NCBI GenBank assembly: GCA_023663725.1
Contig: JAMPGX010000026.1
Span: 1 to 34,475, forward strand
From: a bacterium
GTDB taxonomy: Bacteria > Bacillota > Clostridia > Lachnospirales > Lachnospiraceae
DNA length: 34,475 nt
Direction of reading: 5' to 3'
Part shown: positions 12,252-28,193 of the stretch, piece by piece
How the letters are laid out: each line of letters starts with the position of its first letter
How positions within the stretch are numbered: position 1 is the first letter of the stretch
The notes under the pieces: generated by a model
What the model saw: only the letters and a program-made list of their open reading frames with translations
What the model was told of the DNA's origin: nothing
Database searches by the model: none
Position numbers and translations under genes: made by a program

Positions 12252-12302
12252 ATTGATGTGGAAAACATTGGATACTTGGACAGATCAGGGAGGACGAAGA
12301 GG

Positions 12303-12659
12303 ATGGAGGAGTATACATTGGGACTGGTGGAGAGCCGTTTTGCGCAGATCGTGTGGGAGCATGCGCCGATGCCGATGACGGAGCTGGTGAAGCTGTGTGA
12401 GCAGCAGCTTGCGTGGAAGCGGACGACTACCTACACGGTGCTGAAGAAGCTGAGCGAGAGGGGCATTTTTGCCAATCAGGGCGGAACGGTGGTCGTGCTG
12501 ATGGGCAGGGAGGAATTCTATGGCAGGCAGAGCGAAGCCTATGTGGAGCGCTCCTTTCAGGGTTCTCTGCCGGGGTTTCTGACGGCCTTTACCTCCAGAA
12601 GAAAGCTCAGTGAGGAGGAGATTCACAGGCTGCGGCAGATCATAGAGGAGAATCGATGA
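12303..12659 (+). CDS. BlaI/MecI-family transcriptional repressor (first copy)
   Basis: The 118-residue protein has the BlaI winged helix: 'LGLVESRFAQIVWEHAPMPMTELVKLC', the recognition helix 'WKRTTTYTVLKKLSERGIFANQGGTVVVL', and a C-terminal dimerisation region 'SEEEIHRLRQIIEEN'. Such repressors bind operator dyads as dimers and are released by cleavage, normally triggered by a partner M56 peptidase. ATG 12303 follows GGGAGG at 9 bases; the upstream frame to 12258 is less likely. It overlaps the M56 gene by four bases (ATGA), so the two are coupled. The paired dyads over its promoter suggest autorepression. Confidence 0.92.
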   Translation: MEEYTLGLVESRFAQIVWEHAPMPMTELVKLCEQQLAWKRTTTYTVLKKLSERGIFANQGGTVVVLMGREEFYGRQSEAYVERSFQGSLPGFLTAFTSRRKLSEEEIHRLRQIIEENR

Positions 12660-15169
12660 TGGAAGAGTGGATGATGAGAGTGTTGACGGTCAGTGGCCAG
12701 GCGGCAGTCATCTTTGCGGTGCTGTTGGCGGTGCGGGGAGCGTTTACTCTGGGGCGGGTGCCGAAGAAATACAGCTATGCGCTGTGGGCGATCCTGTTTA
12801 TCAGGCTGCTGCTGCCAGTGCAGCTGGAGAGCGGCTGGGGACTGATGCCCGGGGAGGGCAGGCTGGTCAGGGTGGTGGAGAGCATGCTGGATTCGGGGTC
12901 GAACAGGGAAGAGCTGTCCGAGGGGCAGGGGAATGTCTCAGGGCATCTCTCAGAGGGAGGAGGCAGTGCATGGCGGCAGGAGTCAGGCGGCGGGGAGGAG
13001 CAGCCGTGGAATACGCCGTCATATCAGGCAGCAGGGGAGAGCCATGCGCAGAACCAGGCTCCGCATACAGATAACGGACAGAACACGCCTGAGAACATAG
13101 GAGCTTTCGCTTCGGGAGGGGGAGCCGGATGGCGGATAGAAGTATGGCTGATCGGCATATGGGCGGCAGGAGCGGCGCTTCTGTGGGGATATGGAGCAAC
13201 GTCCTATCTGCTGCTCAAGAGGCGGCTTCGCCTGTGTCTTCGACTGGAGGACTGCGGCGGCACAGGCAGTTGGCCAAGGTCTCCGGGAGGCAGAGCAGAG
13301 AGAGTATATCTGGCGGATGGTATCAGCACTCCCTTTGTGTTGGGCTTTGTCCGTCCTCGAATCTATCTGCCCTCGAATATGGGGGCGGAGTGTTACCCCT
13401 ATGTGGCTGCCCATGAGCGCACGCATATCAGGCGCGGGGATCATCTGATGAAGCTGGGGGCTTATCTGCTCACCTGTCTGTATTGGTTTCATCCGCTGGT
13501 CTGGGCGGGGTATGTCCTGATGTGTCGGGATATGGAGATGTCCTGCGACGAGGCGGTGCTCGGGGAGCTGGGAAGGGACTGCAGAGGGGAATATGCGGAC
13601 AGCCTGCTGCGCCTGACCTGTGGAAGTTATTATCCGGCGGGGGTTCCCCTGGCCTTCGGGGAGGGGGATACACAGGGCAGGATACGGCACATTATGCGCT
13701 ATAAGAAGCCAGTCCTTCTGACGGCGGCCGGGGCTGTGGTGTTGATCGCTGTTCTGGCTGTGGCGCTGCTGACCAGTCCCCGTGAGGGCGACGGTCTGCC
13801 TCAAGGCTCATCGCCTGCTGGGGAGAAAGAGGAGATGGACGCCCAGGGGTCTGCGGCGCAACAGCCTACGGGCGACGGCGATGCGGCGGATTTTCAGGTG
13901 GCATACGCGGAGATAGAGTGCCCCAAACCGGTGCGAACGGGCTATACCTCCCTGGGTGCGGACGGCGCTATATTGGACTATGCGGATGAGAAGACGGTAA
14001 TTTTCCACGGGTATTTTGGCCTGTATGTGTACTCTGTAGCTGAGAAAGAGCTTGTCGGGGCAGTGGATCTGCAGGCGCTGGGCTGCGGTGCGACCCAGGG
14101 CGACAATACCTGCCAGGTGCTCGTCAACAAGGGCGGGAGCAAGGTATATTTTTATCCGCTGAGTGGCATAGACATAGCGGAAAGGTATGTCGGGGACACC
14201 GAAGCCGAATCTGACAGAGAGGAGAATGGGCAGACAGTTGCCTGTTATGTGTATGAGGTATCCAGCGGTAAGCTGCGGGTCATGACCAGCAGTCTGTGGC
14301 AGCAGGCACAGTTTTATTCCCGCGACGGCCTCAGCGCTCTGACCGGAGAGGAGCTGAGCGGCTCGCAGGATACTTCCGGAGAAGCATCCTGGGATGTTTG
14401 CCGAGAGGTCTCATGGGAAGAGATCGGAATGGAACCGGCGGCGGGCTGGAGCTTTTACTCCGACTCCTGTATGAGCTTTCAGGGAGGAGACGACAGGAAT
14501 TATGGGTATCTGGCCAGCGTCAGCGGGATGCTGGAGGACCTGGTATATGTGTGGGGCCCCAATTCCCGGCAGATTGGCGGAGGGATGAGCTATGTGCAGC
14601 TGTTCGGAACAAAGAGCAGCGTCGCCTCCTACGGGCCGGAGTCGTCAACGCAGTTGACGATAGACGGCGTGGAGCATGATCTCGCCAGGGAGATGACCAG
14701 AGTGCTCGTGGGGGATGAGGTGCTGGAGAACGCTGAGGGAGTGGAGCTCGTAAATGCCATTTGGGGGTTGTACAGTCTCGATGGCTGCTGGCTTGTGGAA
14801 GGGCATATCGGACCGGATCGCAGCACCTACAGCGTCTACAATCCGACAAAGGGGCAGTGGGAATGCCATATTCTGGGAAGCTGCCTTGCCTGGTGCGATC
14901 AGCCGGAGGGTCTGGAGAGACAAGGGGATAAGAGCAGGCTGTACTCCACTGGCATCTATGCGCTGGACAATGTGATCTACACGGTGCAGGGGGAACGTCT
15001 GACTGCGGTGGAGCTGGAGCAGGGGGAAACTATCATGGGCTTGGAATGCGCGGTGAACGAGGCGATCACGGAGGTGACAGTGGTGATCGCCACAGGCGAG
15101 GCGGAGAGCGGATATAGAACGAAAGAGTTTGGCTATTCCACGGTCATGCTGCGGTGGCATCCCGATTAA
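12656..15169 (+). CDS. BlaR1/MecR1-like M56 metallopeptidase with long non-PBP sensor domain
   Basis: This 837-residue membrane protein has two helices near the N-terminus, a Gly/Ser/Gln-rich low-complexity outside loop (about 75-155), a third helix near 160-185, then the M56 domain. HERTH is at residues 253-257 (zinc ligands and Glu), followed by the conserved CDEAVL at 297. A fourth helix lies at about 350-373. The remaining roughly 460 residues are extracytoplasmic and rich in short strands. They show no SxxK/KTG penicillin-binding motifs, so the signal is not a classical beta-lactam sensor. The protease probably inactivates the co-transcribed BlaI-like repressor when its outside domain binds an unknown ligand. 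Confidence 0.9.
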   Translation: MMEEWMMRVLTVSGQAAVIFAVLLAVRGAFTLGRVPKKYSYALWAILFIRLLLPVQLESGWGLMPGEGRLVRVVESMLDSGSNREELSEGQGNVSGHLSEGGGSAWRQESGGGEEQPWNTPSYQAAGESHAQNQAPHTDNGQNTPENIGAFASGGGAGWRIEVWLIGIWAAGAALLWGYGATSYLLLKRRLRLCLRLEDCGGTGSWPRSPGGRAERVYLADGISTPFVLGFVRPRIYLPSNMGAECYPYVAAHERTHIRRGDHLMKLGAYLLTCLYWFHPLVWAGYVLMCRDMEMSCDEAVLGELGRDCRGEYADSLLRLTCGSYYPAGVPLAFGEGDTQGRIRHIMRYKKPVLLTAAGAVVLIAVLAVALLTSPREGDGLPQGSSPAGEKEEMDAQGSAAQQPTGDGDAADFQVAYAEIECPKPVRTGYTSLGADGAILDYADEKTVIFHGYFGLYVYSVAEKELVGAVDLQALGCGATQGDNTCQVLVNKGGSKVYFYPLSGIDIAERYVGDTEAESDREENGQTVACYVYEVSSGKLRVMTSSLWQQAQFYSRDGLSALTGEELSGSQDTSGEASWDVCREVSWEEIGMEPAAGWSFYSDSCMSFQGGDDRNYGYLASVSGMLEDLVYVWGPNSRQIGGGMSYVQLFGTKSSVASYGPESSTQLTIDGVEHDLAREMTRVLVGDEVLENAEGVELVNAIWGLYSLDGCWLVEGHIGPDRSTYSVYNPTKGQWECHILGSCLAWCDQPEGLERQGDKSRLYSTGIYALDNVIYTVQGERLTAVELEQGETIMGLECAVNEAITEVTVVIATGEAESGYRTKEFGYSTVMLRWHPD

Positions 15170-15481
15170 TGAGCCGCCTGCTGCGCGGAGAGCCTTGGAA
15201 ATAAATTTATTTACATCTATAAATGAATTGCGCGGGGAATCCGATATATGTATATAGGCATAATGCTGTGCAGATGCCATATGCCGGAGACCCGCGCAAT
15301 TTTGTCTGTCACTGCTGCGAAACTTCTGTTTTGTCACTTGCTGATCTCCGTTTTGGATTTACAGCGTGAGGGGACTTGCCGGCTTATGCTGACAGGCGTA
15401 ACCGTTCGTGAGTATTCGATGATGAGAGAAATATGCTTTCCGCCCGTTTCATGCGGGGCCTGGAAAGGGAAAGAGGTAGAG
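15170..15481. other. Gene-free interval between the two BlaI/M56 units
   Basis: The interval holds a perfect 14-bp AT palindrome, AAATAAATTTATTT (15199-15212), and a long stem-loop described separately (15226-15304). The remainder has an open frame that runs into the second blaI but lacks family similarity. No copy of the GTCTAT/ATAGAC operators was found here, so the second pair may answer to a different repressor site. Confidence 0.5.
15226..15304 (+). terminator. Long stem-loop, putative terminator or structured RNA
   Basis: AATTGCGCGGG (15226-15236) pairs perfectly with CCCGCGCAATT (15291-15301) and is followed by a short T-run. The 54-base loop contains its own GGCATA/TATGCC stem (15257-15262 with 15280-15285). 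The closing stem and T-run fit transcription termination after the first M56 gene. The large loop is unusual for a simple terminator. Confidence 0.5.
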
Positions 15482-15871
15482 ATGGGAGAGATCACGCCCA
15501 GCGAAAATGAATGGCTGGTAATGGAGGTATTGTGGGCCCACGAGGGGACTATGACGGCGGCGGAGATTATCGGGCAGCTGACAGGAAAGACGGAGGTGAG
15601 CCAGAAGACGATACGGGTTATGCTGAACCGCCTGCTGGCCAAGGGAATGGTGACTTACAGGGTGGATGAGAAGGATGCCAGGATCTATCACTATCAGGCG
15701 GCCAGGACCAAGGAGGAATGTCTGCGGCTCAAGAGCAAGCGCTTTGTCAGCCATTATTTTGGCGGCAACGCTTCACTGGCAGTGGCCAGCTTCCTCAAGT
15801 CGGCGCAGATCAGCAGGGAGCAGCTCGAGGAGCTGGGCAGCCTGGTGGAGAGTCTGAAGGACCAGAAATAG
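15482..15871 (+). CDS. BlaI/MecI-family transcriptional repressor (second copy)
   Basis: The 129-residue protein is a canonical BlaI: 'TPSENEWLVMEVLWAHEGTMTAAEII', the recognition helix 'VSQKTIRVMLNRLLAKGMVTYRVDEKDARIYHY', and a C-terminal dimer part. It is closer to consensus than the first copy. ATG 15482 with GAGG five bases upstream gives the family start; a longer frame to 15248 adds unrelated residues. Its TAG overlaps the first base of the 137-bp repeat array that separates it from its M56 partner. In most genomes the two genes overlap, so the insertion of repeats here is unusual. Confidence 0.94.
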   Translation: MGEITPSENEWLVMEVLWAHEGTMTAAEIIGQLTGKTEVSQKTIRVMLNRLLAKGMVTYRVDEKDARIYHYQAARTKEECLRLKSKRFVSHYFGGNASLAVASFLKSAQISREQLEELGSLVESLKDQK

Positions 15872-15900
15872 CCCGCCAAAGCGGGCGGACGGGAGTTTGT

Positions 15901-15954
15901 GTGAAGAGAAGTTCTAATGCTCACAGCATAGGCTGTTTCGCAAAGAACTTCTAA
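15901..15954 (+). CDS. Possible 17-residue peptide in repeat copy 1
   Basis: A GTG start with GGGAG five bases upstream opens a short frame encoding MKRSSNAHSIGCFAKNF, ending at TAA. The start lies in a hairpin arm. The frame is fixed by the stem sequences, so it may be incidental. No homologous peptide function is known to me. Confidence 0.25.
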   Translation: MKRSSNAHSIGCFAKNF

Positions 15955-16037
15955 AGCTTCACACCGAAGAATGCCTGAAATGCGGCATTCTTCATCCTGA
16001 TTTGAGAGCCCGCTAAAGCGGGCGGACGGGAGTTTGT

Positions 16038-16091
16038 GTGAAGAGAAGTTCTAATGCTCACAGCATAGGCTGTTTCGCAAAGAACTTCTAA
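16038..16091 (+). CDS. Possible 17-residue peptide in repeat copy 2
   Basis: This is an identical copy of the frame at 15901-15954, again with GGGAG-N5-GTG. The base differences between the units fall outside this frame, which is compatible with either recent duplication or selection on the frame or its stems. Confidence 0.25.
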   Translation: MKRSSNAHSIGCFAKNF

Positions 16092-16174
16092 AGATTCACA
16101 CCGAAGAATGTCTGAAATGCAGCATTCTTCATCCTGATTTGAAAGCCCGCCAAAGCGGGCGGACGGGAGTTAGT

Positions 16175-17638
16175 ATGAGAGTGTGGGAGTGGGCGGATAT
16201 GCTGCGGCGTCTCGCAATATTTACCTGTCAGTACAATTTTAGCAAGTGTATGCGCACCGCTGTATGCGGGCTCGTTGCCATGCTGCCGCTGCTGCTGGCG
16301 TGTGCCGTCAGGCGAAGGAGGGCAGGCAGATGGGCGGATGCGGGCTTTTACAGTTGGCTCCTCCTGTTGCCGACGGCACTGACAGGTATGAGCAGACTGT
16401 TTTACCAGCATTTTAGCTATAGGCTCACAGAGGCAATCAACAGACTGGGAGCGTCCTGGGTCAGCGGCGTGTATATTGCGGTGATGCTGGCGCTGGCAGG
16501 CTGGTGGCTGTGCAGAAGGAGGATGCTCAACCGCCAGGTGAGAGCGCTTCCCTGTTGGCGCCATCCGCAGGAGGGGCGTTTCGGTGACAGGACTGGCTGG
16601 CAAAGCTGTTTTCGGCAGGTGACGGCGGGCGATTGTCTGGGACTGGCCCGGTGGTATCTAAACAGGGTGCGGGTCTATGTCAGCGAGGAGGAGAGCAGTC
16701 CCTTTTGCGGCGGAGTGCTGCGTCCCTATATCGTGATGCCGGAGGCGTATCTGGAGCCTCAGAGGGGTGTCCGCCCTTGCCCAGAGGGGGGAAAAGCCTG
16801 TCAGGAGGACAGAAAAACAGCTCTGCGGCGCCGTCTGCGCCATCGCGTCTCTGCGGGGAGCGTATCCGGTGAGAGACGTCTGACCAGGCAGGGCGAGGTG
16901 TTGCTCTGCCATGAGCTGCTGCATTTGAAGTACGGACATATCCTCTGGCTCAATCTGTTTGCCCTTCTCCGGATCTATTGGTGGGCTAACCCTTTGATCT
17001 ATCTCTGTGAGAAATTGCTGCAGCAGGACATGGAGCTGGCCTGTGACGAGGGCAGCCTGTACTATACGGCGGCAGGGGAGAGGGAGTATGGCAGGCTGCT
17101 GCTCTCGGTGGCGGCGGGTCAGACCTCGGCAAAGCCTGTCGGTGCGGCTTCCTTTCTGAGGGACAGGGACTATCATTCTCTGAGGAGCCGCATCGAGCGC
17201 CTGCGGAGAGAAGGAGGACAACAGTATTCCAGACGTCACAGATTCCTGAGCTGGGGCTGCACCATGGCGTTGACCGTAGGTCTTCTGGCGGTGACCATGA
17301 CCTCCTATCCCCGCTACACTCGGATGTCGGAGCTGGTGTTGTATGACGAGGATCTGCAGATGATCTGTAACAACTCCCCGCAGCTGCGGGAGGCGGTGCA
17401 GGTGGTGGACGGTTATCTGCGGATTGATGCCAGGCAGATGGATGACTGTCTGGCGGAACTGGAGGTAGCGGGGAATTACGTCTACTTAGGCTATGACACG
17501 ATCATGAAGGTGCCGGGAGCGGGAGGCGGCGGCAACGTGGGAATGATTGCTGTCGGAGACTATGAGGATATCTTCTATTTGCGCGCGGAGACCTGGGAGA
17601 ATGATTTTCTGGAATTTTTCCTCAAATATCTGCTATAG
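16175..17638 (+). CDS. M56-family membrane metallopeptidase (BlaR1-like, second copy)
   Basis: The 487-residue protein has helices at about 25-45, 55-75 and 95-120 and a Cys/Arg-rich cytoplasmic stretch. The M56 motif HELLH is at residues 246-250, followed by 'WWANPLIYLCEKLLQQDMELACDEGSLYY', the family's second conserved block. A fourth helix ('LSWGCTMALTVGLLAVTMTSY') precedes a short outside domain of about 110 residues. It lacks a penicillin-binding domain, so the ligand is unknown. ATG 16175 uses a GGGAG site belonging to the third repeat unit. It is the likely protease partner of the second BlaI. Confidence 0.9.
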   Translation: MRVWEWADMLRRLAIFTCQYNFSKCMRTAVCGLVAMLPLLLACAVRRRRAGRWADAGFYSWLLLLPTALTGMSRLFYQHFSYRLTEAINRLGASWVSGVYIAVMLALAGWWLCRRRMLNRQVRALPCWRHPQEGRFGDRTGWQSCFRQVTAGDCLGLARWYLNRVRVYVSEEESSPFCGGVLRPYIVMPEAYLEPQRGVRPCPEGGKACQEDRKTALRRRLRHRVSAGSVSGERRLTRQGEVLLCHELLHLKYGHILWLNLFALLRIYWWANPLIYLCEKLLQQDMELACDEGSLYYTAAGEREYGRLLLSVAAGQTSAKPVGAASFLRDRDYHSLRSRIERLRREGGQQYSRRHRFLSWGCTMALTVGLLAVTMTSYPRYTRMSELVLYDEDLQMICNNSPQLREAVQVVDGYLRIDARQMDDCLAELEVAGNYVYLGYDTIMKVPGAGGGGNVGMIAVGDYEDIFYLRAETWENDFLEFFLKYLL

Positions 17639-26399: not shown

Positions 26400-28193
26400 A
26401 TGCGAAGCAGGGATAAGTACAAGGGATATAGCTTTAATGGCGTCAAGAAAAGATCACTTTCTGTCAGACTGCGTACTGTCCTGCTGGGCATTATCCTGAT
26501 TATGACAATCTCCTTTATCCTGTGCATTTTTATAATTATTAGAAAAGAGCGGAAAGCATATGAGATCAGGGAGTCAGAGCGTATGTTGAACAGCCTTTCT
26601 AACAGCATGCAGTCGAATCTGGAGAGGTATCTGGAACTTTCGCGCTTAATCATGGTGGATGACAGGCTTGTAAAGTTCCTTCGCGCCAGTACAGAGAGTG
26701 TCGGCACAGGCATTATCAATGATGCCAGGTACGGTGTGCTGGATATCCTCAATGTCACCAGCAATGTGGACTCTGTTGTTGTGATCCGCGAGGATATGAT
26801 CCTTATGGATACGAATCGCGCCGCCTATTGGTATGACTATGGTAAAATGAGCCAGGAGCCGTGGAAAGAGGAGATATTGAAGGGGCTCGGAAAGGCGAGT
26901 GTTTTTATCAATGGCAACAATACCATGGCCAGGCTTGACGGCAGTCCGGTAGTCACCATCGGTCGGGCTATCTATGATCTAAATTCTCAGAAGCGCACGG
27001 GCATCCTGCTGATGAATATCTCAGACGCCCTGTTGGAACAGATCATTGACTCACTGCACCACGACAGGATATGCATAATGGGAATGGACGGGACCTTTCT
27101 GGCGGGTGACGCATCCCTGAGGCAGTATTACAGGTATGGGTTTTCAACGGAGAGCGTAGTCCACAGGGAGATGAGAGATAACACTGGCAAAATTCTGGTA
27201 TCCGGCTGTAGGGTGGGGGATATGCCGATTGTCGCCATATGCGTCAACCAGGTGGGAATGGTGGGTATCCCACATGAGACAGGCTATGTGCTCTTGGCCC
27301 TGTTGCTGGAGTTTGTGATCTTCGTCCTGTTAGCGGGAGCTTTTATCGCCACAAACATAACTAACCCTGTGTTTGAGCTGATATCAGCCATGGAAAAAAA
27401 CAGGGAGTCGGGCTTGCTTGAGGAGATTGAATTGAATATGCCCTACAATGAGATCTATATGCTGGGGGAAAGCTATAACAGCATGATTGATCATGTGGGC
27501 GATCTGTTCAACCGACTGATTGACAAGGAAAAAAAGATTCAGAGAGCCCAGATGCGTGTTCTGCATGAGCAGATCAAGCCGCATTTCCTGTACAATTCTC
27601 TGGAAACCATAGGCTTCATGGCGATGGATGCCGGAGCGGAGAATGTGTATTCCGCACTGGAGACCTTGGGCAGCTTCTACCGCAATTTCCTCAGCAGGGG
27701 GGACAGGGAGATCCCGCTTCGAAATGAGGTCCTGATTGTGCAGGATTATCTGGCCATACAGAAGCTGCGATACGGAGATATCTTCTGTGACGAGTATGAT
27801 ATTGGGGAGGACACGGGAGAATATATTGTCCCCAAGCTGATCCTGCAACCCCTGGTAGAGAACAGCATCTATCATGGCATCAGGCCCAAGGGGGAGAGTG
27901 GGATCATCAAGATCAGCAGCCGAATGGAGGACGGCAATCTGCATATAGCGGTAAAGGATACCGGTGTAGGGATGGCGCAGGAGAAGATAGAGCAGGTGAT
28001 GCTCTGCGATAAGGACTGCTGCAACGGGGATACATTGGAGAGCTTTGGGTTATGGGGGACTATAGAGCGAATCAGATGCTATTGCGACCGCAATGATGCG
28101 GTGAGAATCCGAAGCGAGGCGGGAGAGTACACAGAGATAGAGATTATTATCCCGAAGGAAAAAGTAAAGAGGGTGAAGGAACAGGATGTATAG
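26400..28193 (+). CDS. YesM-family sensor histidine kinase
   Basis: The 597-residue protein has a helix near 25-47, an outside sensor domain (about 50-300), a second helix near 300-320 and a HAMP-like segment. The His_kinase domain carries 'EQIKPHFLYNSLETIGF' with phospho-acceptor His395. The ATPase part has 'PLVENSIYHGI' (N-box), 'DTGVGM' and 'GLWGTIERI'. This LytS/YesM group phosphorylates AraC-type response regulators and usually controls neighbouring sugar transport genes. Its gene overlaps the regulator gene by eight bases. It is probably the sensor for the sugar ABC operon upstream. Start ATG 26400 follows GAGG. Confidence 0.94.
   Translation: MRSRDKYKGYSFNGVKKRSLSVRLRTVLLGIILIMTISFILCIFIIIRKERKAYEIRESERMLNSLSNSMQSNLERYLELSRLIMVDDRLVKFLRASTESVGTGIINDARYGVLDILNVTSNVDSVVVIREDMILMDTNRAAYWYDYGKMSQEPWKEEILKGLGKASVFINGNNTMARLDGSPVVTIGRAIYDLNSQKRTGILLMNISDALLEQIIDSLHHDRICIMGMDGTFLAGDASLRQYYRYGFSTESVVHREMRDNTGKILVSGCRVGDMPIVAICVNQVGMVGIPHETGYVLLALLLEFVIFVLLAGAFIATNITNPVFELISAMEKNRESGLLEEIELNMPYNEIYMLGESYNSMIDHVGDLFNRLIDKEKKIQRAQMRVLHEQIKPHFLYNSLETIGFMAMDAGAENVYSALETLGSFYRNFLSRGDREIPLRNEVLIVQDYLAIQKLRYGDIFCDEYDIGEDTGEYIVPKLILQPLVENSIYHGIRPKGESGIIKISSRMEDGNLHIAVKDTGVGMAQEKIEQVMLCDKDCCNGDTLESFGLWGTIERIRCYCDRNDAVRIRSEAGEYTEIEIIIPKEKVKRVKEQDV

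Follow-up and report, generated by a model that had tools for sequence, protein, structure and literature searches.

The sequence comparisons presented here indicated that the array separating a blaI gene from its M56 partner in a Lachnospiraceae genome had probably arisen by tandem duplication of a small, MIRU-like mobile element, which codes for no protein, is built of hairpins, occupies intercistronic spaces and restores a stop and a start when it inserts. The array lay in a window of 34,475 nucleotides (contig JAMPGX010000026.1), and relatives of its core were found at many unrelated gene junctions in related genomes.

The array between blaI and the M56 gene

In the window, a blaI gene of the penicillinase repressor family (15482-15871, plus strand; Penicillinase_R, Pfam PF03965, E = 8.3e-26) preceded a gene for a BlaR1-type M56 peptidase (16175-17638, plus strand; Peptidase_M56, Pfam PF05569, E = 7.4e-22). 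Between them, TRF reported an array at 15870-16178 with a period of 137, 2.3 copies, 95% matches and no indels, which bore out the exact 137-bp period given in a preliminary description of this DNA. The 137-bp unit was present 2.25 times across 15871-16178, all on the plus strand. Unit 2 (16008-16144) differed from unit 1 (15871-16007) by 5 substitutions in 137 bp, and the third copy, which was incomplete (16145-16178), by 2 in 34. The unit starts in the preliminary description were correct, whereas its end point of 16174 was too short, and the extension of the third copy to 16178 meant that the M56 start codon was contained in that copy. The array and the TAG stop codon of blaI (15869-15871) overlapped by a single base, at 15871. 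At the other end, the third copy consisted of hairpin C followed by GGGAG TTAGT and the ATG of M56 (16175-16177), with the Shine-Dalgarno-like GGGAG (16165-16169) located 5 nt ahead of the ATG. Because the array began on the blaI stop and the ribosome-binding site and start of M56 were in the third copy, the array made up the entire intercistronic spacer.

From 5' to 3', each full unit contained hairpin C, a GGGAG motif, hairpin A, hairpin B and a linker with TGATTTGAGA at its end, and the earlier statement that the units were packed with hairpins was borne out by the folding of these three stable structures. A single unit folded at -62.8 kcal/mol, compared to an average of -36.5 +/- 3.8 when its dinucleotides were shuffled (z -7.0), and none of the 200 shuffled sequences was as stable. 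In unit 1, hairpin C (15871-15886; GCCCGC CAAA GCGGGC) had a 6-bp stem that began on the G of the blaI TAG and folded alone at -11.2 kcal/mol (z -3.2). The Shine-Dalgarno-like GGGAG (15891-15895) was followed by a GTG at 15901 that opened a 17-codon open reading frame (ORF), which was not conserved in the family. Hairpin A (15899-15964), the core of the family, was a long stem with a nested hairpin and reached -29.1 kcal/mol alone (z -5.7), and hairpin B (15966-15993) had a 10-bp stem and reached -14.5 kcal/mol (z -5.9).

A second blaI-M56 pair in the window (12258-12659 and 12656-15169) had no array. Its genes overlapped by 4 nt (ATGA, 12656-12659, plus strand), in line with the preliminary statement that BlaI and M56 genes usually overlap or nearly do so. 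The two BlaI/M56 circuits were adjacent, the pair at 12258-15169 lying just upstream of the array-bearing pair. The window also held a short tandem repeat at 27287-27339 (period 27, 1.9 copies, 80% matches), which was located within an ORF of histidine-kinase type (26400-28193).

On the plus strand of 15700-16400, we found no intrinsic terminator and no promoter. The terminator scan of this region gave a single minus-strand match at 15890-15871, and shuffles yielded 0.8 matches. The covariance models of Rfam 15 gave no matches in the window at the gathering threshold, in 15400-16600 at E values up to 1 or in three relatives at E values up to 0.1. A search of viral_contigs with the exact core pattern, which was a strict test, returned 0 matches, so no phage carriage was seen.

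Spread, structure and position of the A+B core

A DNA search in which at most four candidates were scored per genome found the A+B core in 48 of 196 genomes, including the window's own. In the window's genome, a DNA search clearly found the core only at the array. We built a covariance model, R1, on 21 copies of the core. With 20 candidates scored per genome, R1 was positive in 70 of the 196 genomes, the window's own included, all of them members of the window's genus. In the window's genome, R1 matched six places at E values up to 1; two were the units of the window (unit 2 with E = 1.8e-21) and one was weak. A deeper R1 search of six genomes, with 150 candidates scored in each, returned at least 86 copies (genome G044), at least 45, at least 30, at least 26, at least 22 and at least 6 copies. 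Restriction of the core to one genus was ruled out, since 297 genomes of the same family but of other genera included 18 that matched R1 at E values up to 1e-5 (13 candidates scored per genome). The preliminary description had named a unit found only at this locus as part of the outcome that would count against it; the search of the host and related genomes found the A+B core widely. We found no description of such a family in the open-licence literature, as far as its listings show.

The R1 consensus contained 30 base pairs, 13 of which had changes on both sides, and 97.2% of the cells were paired, compared to 38 to 49% in slid controls. The covariation score was 0.247, and none of 500 shuffles scored as high. 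On one of the five covariation measures, further pair types, the alignment did no better than shuffles (170 of 500). The A+B core belonged to a covarying, dispersed and structured family whose stems were kept through two-sided changes.

Hairpin C with its GGGAG tail had two further occurrences in the window's genome, at C11:17034-17131, where the order read by eye was C, a short A-like hairpin and C. A C-only spacer of similar build was seen by eye at C12:45263 (a weak DNA match, E = 0.12). At other loci, neighbouring copies of the core were spaced about 81 to 154 bp apart, including about 137 bp in G117, G112 and G082, 154 bp in G038 and about 92 bp in G217. Because closely spaced copies occurred at these other loci, tandem growth appeared to be a habit of the element rather than of the blaI-M56 locus. 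In G217, which belongs to another genus, four weak R1 matches lay in a row (C25:27128-27552), the first three about 92 bp apart, and perhaps represented a denser tandem form.

Most of the examined copies were located between co-directional genes and in the orientation of those genes. The core was sense to both neighbours in 51 of 65 copies from G044, 36 of 44 from the rest of the genus and 9 of 11 from other genera, and it was antisense to both in 2, 3 and 0 copies, respectively. The G044 set comprised 65 of the at least 86 copies in that genome; the rest-of-genus set included the window's genome and left out G044, G090 and G062.

The core usually began no more than 20 nt from the stop codon of the gene upstream, and it often included that stop. 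Among the 57 copies in G044 with a same-strand upstream gene, the stop was within 20 nt in 44, inside the core in 31 and more than 20 nt upstream of the core in 11. It fell at core position 0 in 14 copies (13 TAG, 1 TAA), at -1 or -2 in 9 (8 TAA, 1 TGA), at +5 in 9 (the TGA of GTGTGA), at +7 in 2 and at +18 in 4; R1 spans three bases ahead of the core and possibly favoured TAG copies. Two of the 65 cores were inside a called ORF. In the rest of the genus, 36 copies followed a gene on their own strand, and 34 of these had its stop within 20 nt; in other genera, the figure was 9 of 10. The window's own copy, with its stop at -28, was one of the two misses in the rest-of-genus set, since hairpin C sits between the blaI stop and its A+B core. 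In G090 and G062, where the core was part of a larger repeat, just one of four copies was docked at a stop.

As a control, we used the non-overlapping co-directional gaps of G044 and its close relative G075 in which no element was recognised. A random point in such a gap was within 20 nt of the stop with a probability of 0.18 (by length) or 0.47 (by pair), and the by-pair value rose arithmetically to about 0.57 once the 34 of 183 overlapping pairs were counted as docked. The docking fraction of 0.77 in G044 was a moderate excess over 0.57, for loci that were picked by score, include several rows of the R1 alignment and have flanking ORFs called mechanically.

Occupied and empty junctions

In ten related blaI-M56 junctions, the A+B core was absent from all ten, both by eye and with R1 at E values up to 1. 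In the five closest relatives, whose BlaI proteins were 84 to 87% identical to that of the window, 14 to 183 nt separated the aligned parts of blaI and M56. Because these junctions had no core, it probably arrived between blaI and M56 in the window's lineage.

The flgK junction (FlgK domains, E = 2e-7; we read the downstream gene as flgL) could be read in 28 of 30 loci. R1 found the core in 5 of these 28, one of them weakly (E = 0.019), and a sixth, in G076, was seen by eye only. The close pair G044 and G075 carried different element variants at this junction. In another pair, G036 and G105, the sequences were 96.6% identical over 819 aligned bases upstream and differed by 140 bp directly downstream of the stop codon of flgK. 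The additional sequence in G105 (L239) opened with an A+B element, and the 'empty' site in G036 (L238) retained a left-arm-like sequence. This left arm, GGACGAAA, also began an element in another genus (L287), and we therefore dropped the idea that the arm in G036 and G105 had been copied from the host. It was more likely that G036 keeps a remnant; because of the left-arm-like sequence, the difference between the two genomes may reflect loss of an element, and the 'empty' site suggested a loss that left a scar on the stop codon. Look-alikes of the left-arm remnant were seen at the flgK junction of G050 and the coaX junction of G045. Comparison of stretches of G044 and G075 yielded 17 differences in length. 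Two of these involved the element, as judged by eye: one was an A+B copy in reverse orientation and the other a degenerate copy, and both were present in G044 and absent in G075.

In the case of the DUF6145-coaX junction of G075 (Pfam DUF6145 and Pan_kinase), an A-only element was flanked by 13-nt direct repeats with 2 mismatches. The repeat included the GGAGG ahead of coaX, the upstream gene stopped inside the element, and the coaX ribosome-binding site was retained. Another copy (L193) lay between exact 11-nt repeats; mismatched controls gave about 0.7 repeats of at least 11 nt per 65 copies compared to 2 seen, one of which was a repeated C hairpin. Across the 65 copies, the direct repeats gave no sign of a systematic target-site duplication, the mean longest repeat being 6.48 nt versus 6.27 nt in mismatched controls. 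A search for Y1_Tnp, the sole enzyme sought, identified no mobilising enzyme.

Regarding the preliminary proposal of a new family of mobile leader elements, a dispersed, structured family with presence and absence between close relatives was indeed found, whereas the term 'leader' did not fit copies that mostly lay after a stop and before a start inside operons.

Alternative explanations and related elements

The preliminary description had proposed that the array sets the ratio of repressor to protease. An array that evolved at this locus to set the BlaI:M56 ratio, with copy number as a tuning dial, would account for very stable hairpins placed exactly between a repressor and a protease, and a hairpin shortly behind a stop codon has been reported in one Escherichia coli study to lower translation of the upstream gene (PMC12306157). 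Against this, the A+B core occurred at many unrelated junctions, such as flgK-flgL and DUF6145-coaX, and was missing both from the ten related blaI-M56 junctions and from the second pair in the window. Such a locus-specific device therefore seemed improbable: a special role at blaI-M56 was unlikely as an evolved function and possible as a side effect on the ratio. A better case could be made for an RNA element maintained by the host, in which the hairpins between cistrons are kept because they make operon mRNAs more stable or direct their processing, while mobility merely spreads the copies. The covariation of the stems, the sense orientation and the occupation of flgK-flgL by different variants in several species were all consistent with such an element. 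However, its distribution was patchy (positive genomes by one model made up little more than a third, at 70 of 196), and most of the readable flgK-flgL and coaX junctions had no core. Sense orientation would also result from the purging of harmful insertions, and covariation would likewise be expected if a transposase recognised the hairpin as DNA. We regard host maintenance as possible and somewhat unlikely.

Two further explanations fared worse. Short, modular, intergenic palindromes would suit a REP-type element mobilised by a Y1 (RAYT/TnpA) transposase, and some element-rich genomes had Y1 sequences (a full-length match in G075 and fragments in G070). Yet Y1_Tnp had no match in the incomplete drafts of the window's genome or of G001, in which 20 of 20 scored candidates were copies; G044, with its at least 86 copies, had just a Y1 fragment containing a stop; and Y1 was present in genomes with no R1 matches, such as G002 and G003. 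Mobilisation by Y1 was thus very improbable. The remaining idea was that the array consists of tandem leader-peptide ORFs, each unit encoding a 17-codon peptide behind a Shine-Dalgarno-like motif. Both window units did contain the ORF (15901 and 16038), but the stop at that codon was kept in only 6 of 21 aligned copies while the stems were kept, 11 copies continued to another stop or to none, and the start in the form sought was missing in 4 of 21. A leader-peptide array was rejected because its frame was not conserved across the 21 copies, and we give this explanation hardly any weight.

Returning to the mobile intercistronic element, the nearest known concept is the MIRU (mycobacterial interspersed repetitive unit). 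MIRUs form tandem arrays, for example at senX3-regX3. A 2025 review described them as apparently mobile elements that insert at start codons, have an internal ORF coupled to the gene there and likely do little harm (PMC12548453). The A+B family was similar in being small, apparently mobile and located at stop/start junctions of the kind described as coupled in that review, with neighbours that would stay expressed (PMC12548453). The counts given above for co-directional neighbours in the genes' orientation and for nearby stop codons agreed with this likeness, coupling at the junctions being assumed. MIRUs also have an internal ORF that overlaps the downstream gene by 4 nt, and the A+B family had none, its 17-codon ORF having the low conservation noted above. 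The family was anchored on the upstream stop codon and conserved as hairpins, in a comparison made by description and between unrelated hosts. It shares the MIRU strategy, yet we did not file it as a MIRU because of the stop-codon anchor, the conservation as structure and the lack of a conserved ORF.

REP and BIME sequences of E. coli are likewise intergenic palindromes, some of them near a stop and with reported effects on upstream translation, and in one study just 446 of 4,072 predicted REPs were within 15 nt of a stop codon (PMC12306157). The A+B unit was larger and had several hairpins, with stops at the 5' end and, here, a ribosome-binding site at the 3' end, and a Y1 transposase was not found in every carrier, the genomes being incomplete drafts. 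BOX elements have a modular build, and to our knowledge, precise stop-codon docking is no defining trait of BOX, RUP or ERIC elements. These are also structured, dispersed repeats between genes (PMC2267715); by description, they differ from the A+B family in hosts and layout. As in bacterial MITEs, core A was nearly all inverted repeat, and two copies had suggestive direct repeats of 11 to 13 nt. A possible difference from MITEs is that the 65 copies showed no excess of direct repeats, and no parent transposon was found in a search for Y1_Tnp.

Candidate mechanism and consequences

The bases at the two ends of the element suggested how it could enter operons. The first bases, AGTGTGA, would complete TAG behind a T and TAA behind a TA, and in the third phase they would supply TGA. 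Because stops arise in different phases, a reading frame whose end received an insertion would likely terminate immediately. At the 3' end, a GGAG-type motif, seen by eye (uncounted) in the window and in many relatives, would restart the next gene. A stop at the 5' end and a ribosome-binding site at the 3' end would allow the element to land where a stop and a start lie close together and leave both genes functional, and with the stop ahead and the restart behind, it would be tolerable inside operons. The 3' end of the unit resembled the sequence before its own core, which would make tandem growth by slippage, recombination or repeated insertion easy. In the window, the putative series ran from C only to C-A-B-C and then to duplication; C-only and C-A'-C spacers occurred elsewhere in the window's genome, as described above, and C-only spacers were seen by eye at stop codons in G001 and G082.

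In the transcript, the hairpin that immediately follows the blaI stop and a structured spacer of about 300 nt would uncouple M56 translation from that of blaI. One E. coli study reported that ribosomes stall and translation falls where a REP hairpin is no more than 15 nt from a stop codon (PMC12306157), and by analogy, BlaI output may be lowered, which is a fair prediction. A broader proposal is that these are family-wide mobile intercistronic RNA elements that restore the stop in several phases at the 5' end, re-create the ribosome-binding site at the 3' end, and use their hairpins to uncouple adjacent genes and re-set their relative expression. Dozens of operons in each genome would be adjusted in this way, BlaI/M56 among them here, and the number of tandem copies would act as a rapidly shifting dial. 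In this full form, the proposal is speculative and rather unlikely.

Insertions inside operons usually break the coupling of neighbouring genes. An element that brings a stop at its front end and a ribosome-binding site at its rear, and that has at least 86 copies in one genome of a gut-bacterial genus, would readily give rise to re-tuned operons and would lend itself to experiments on the way in which coupled genes become separated. What makes the array of interest is the family to which it belongs, a spacer that is abundant, structured, tolerated in operons and probably mobile. Annotators should be aware that upstream proteins can end on stops supplied by the element and that short peptides translated from the hairpins probably do not represent genes.

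Other dispersed repeats were seen in these genomes. In G090, one of the more distant relatives, the blaI-M56 gap (L113) held a repeat of the GCGAAACGC...GTTTCGCAAACG type, which is a second element family at such a junction. By eye, an A-like core was also seen at about position 1500 of five loci in G090 (L077, L083, L089, L095 and L101) and one in G062 (L078), in each case enclosed by a larger repeat, which was closely similar among the loci and had long arms on its outer sides (GCGAAAC...GTTTCGC). This larger repeat with its embedded core looked like a second, recently active composite element.
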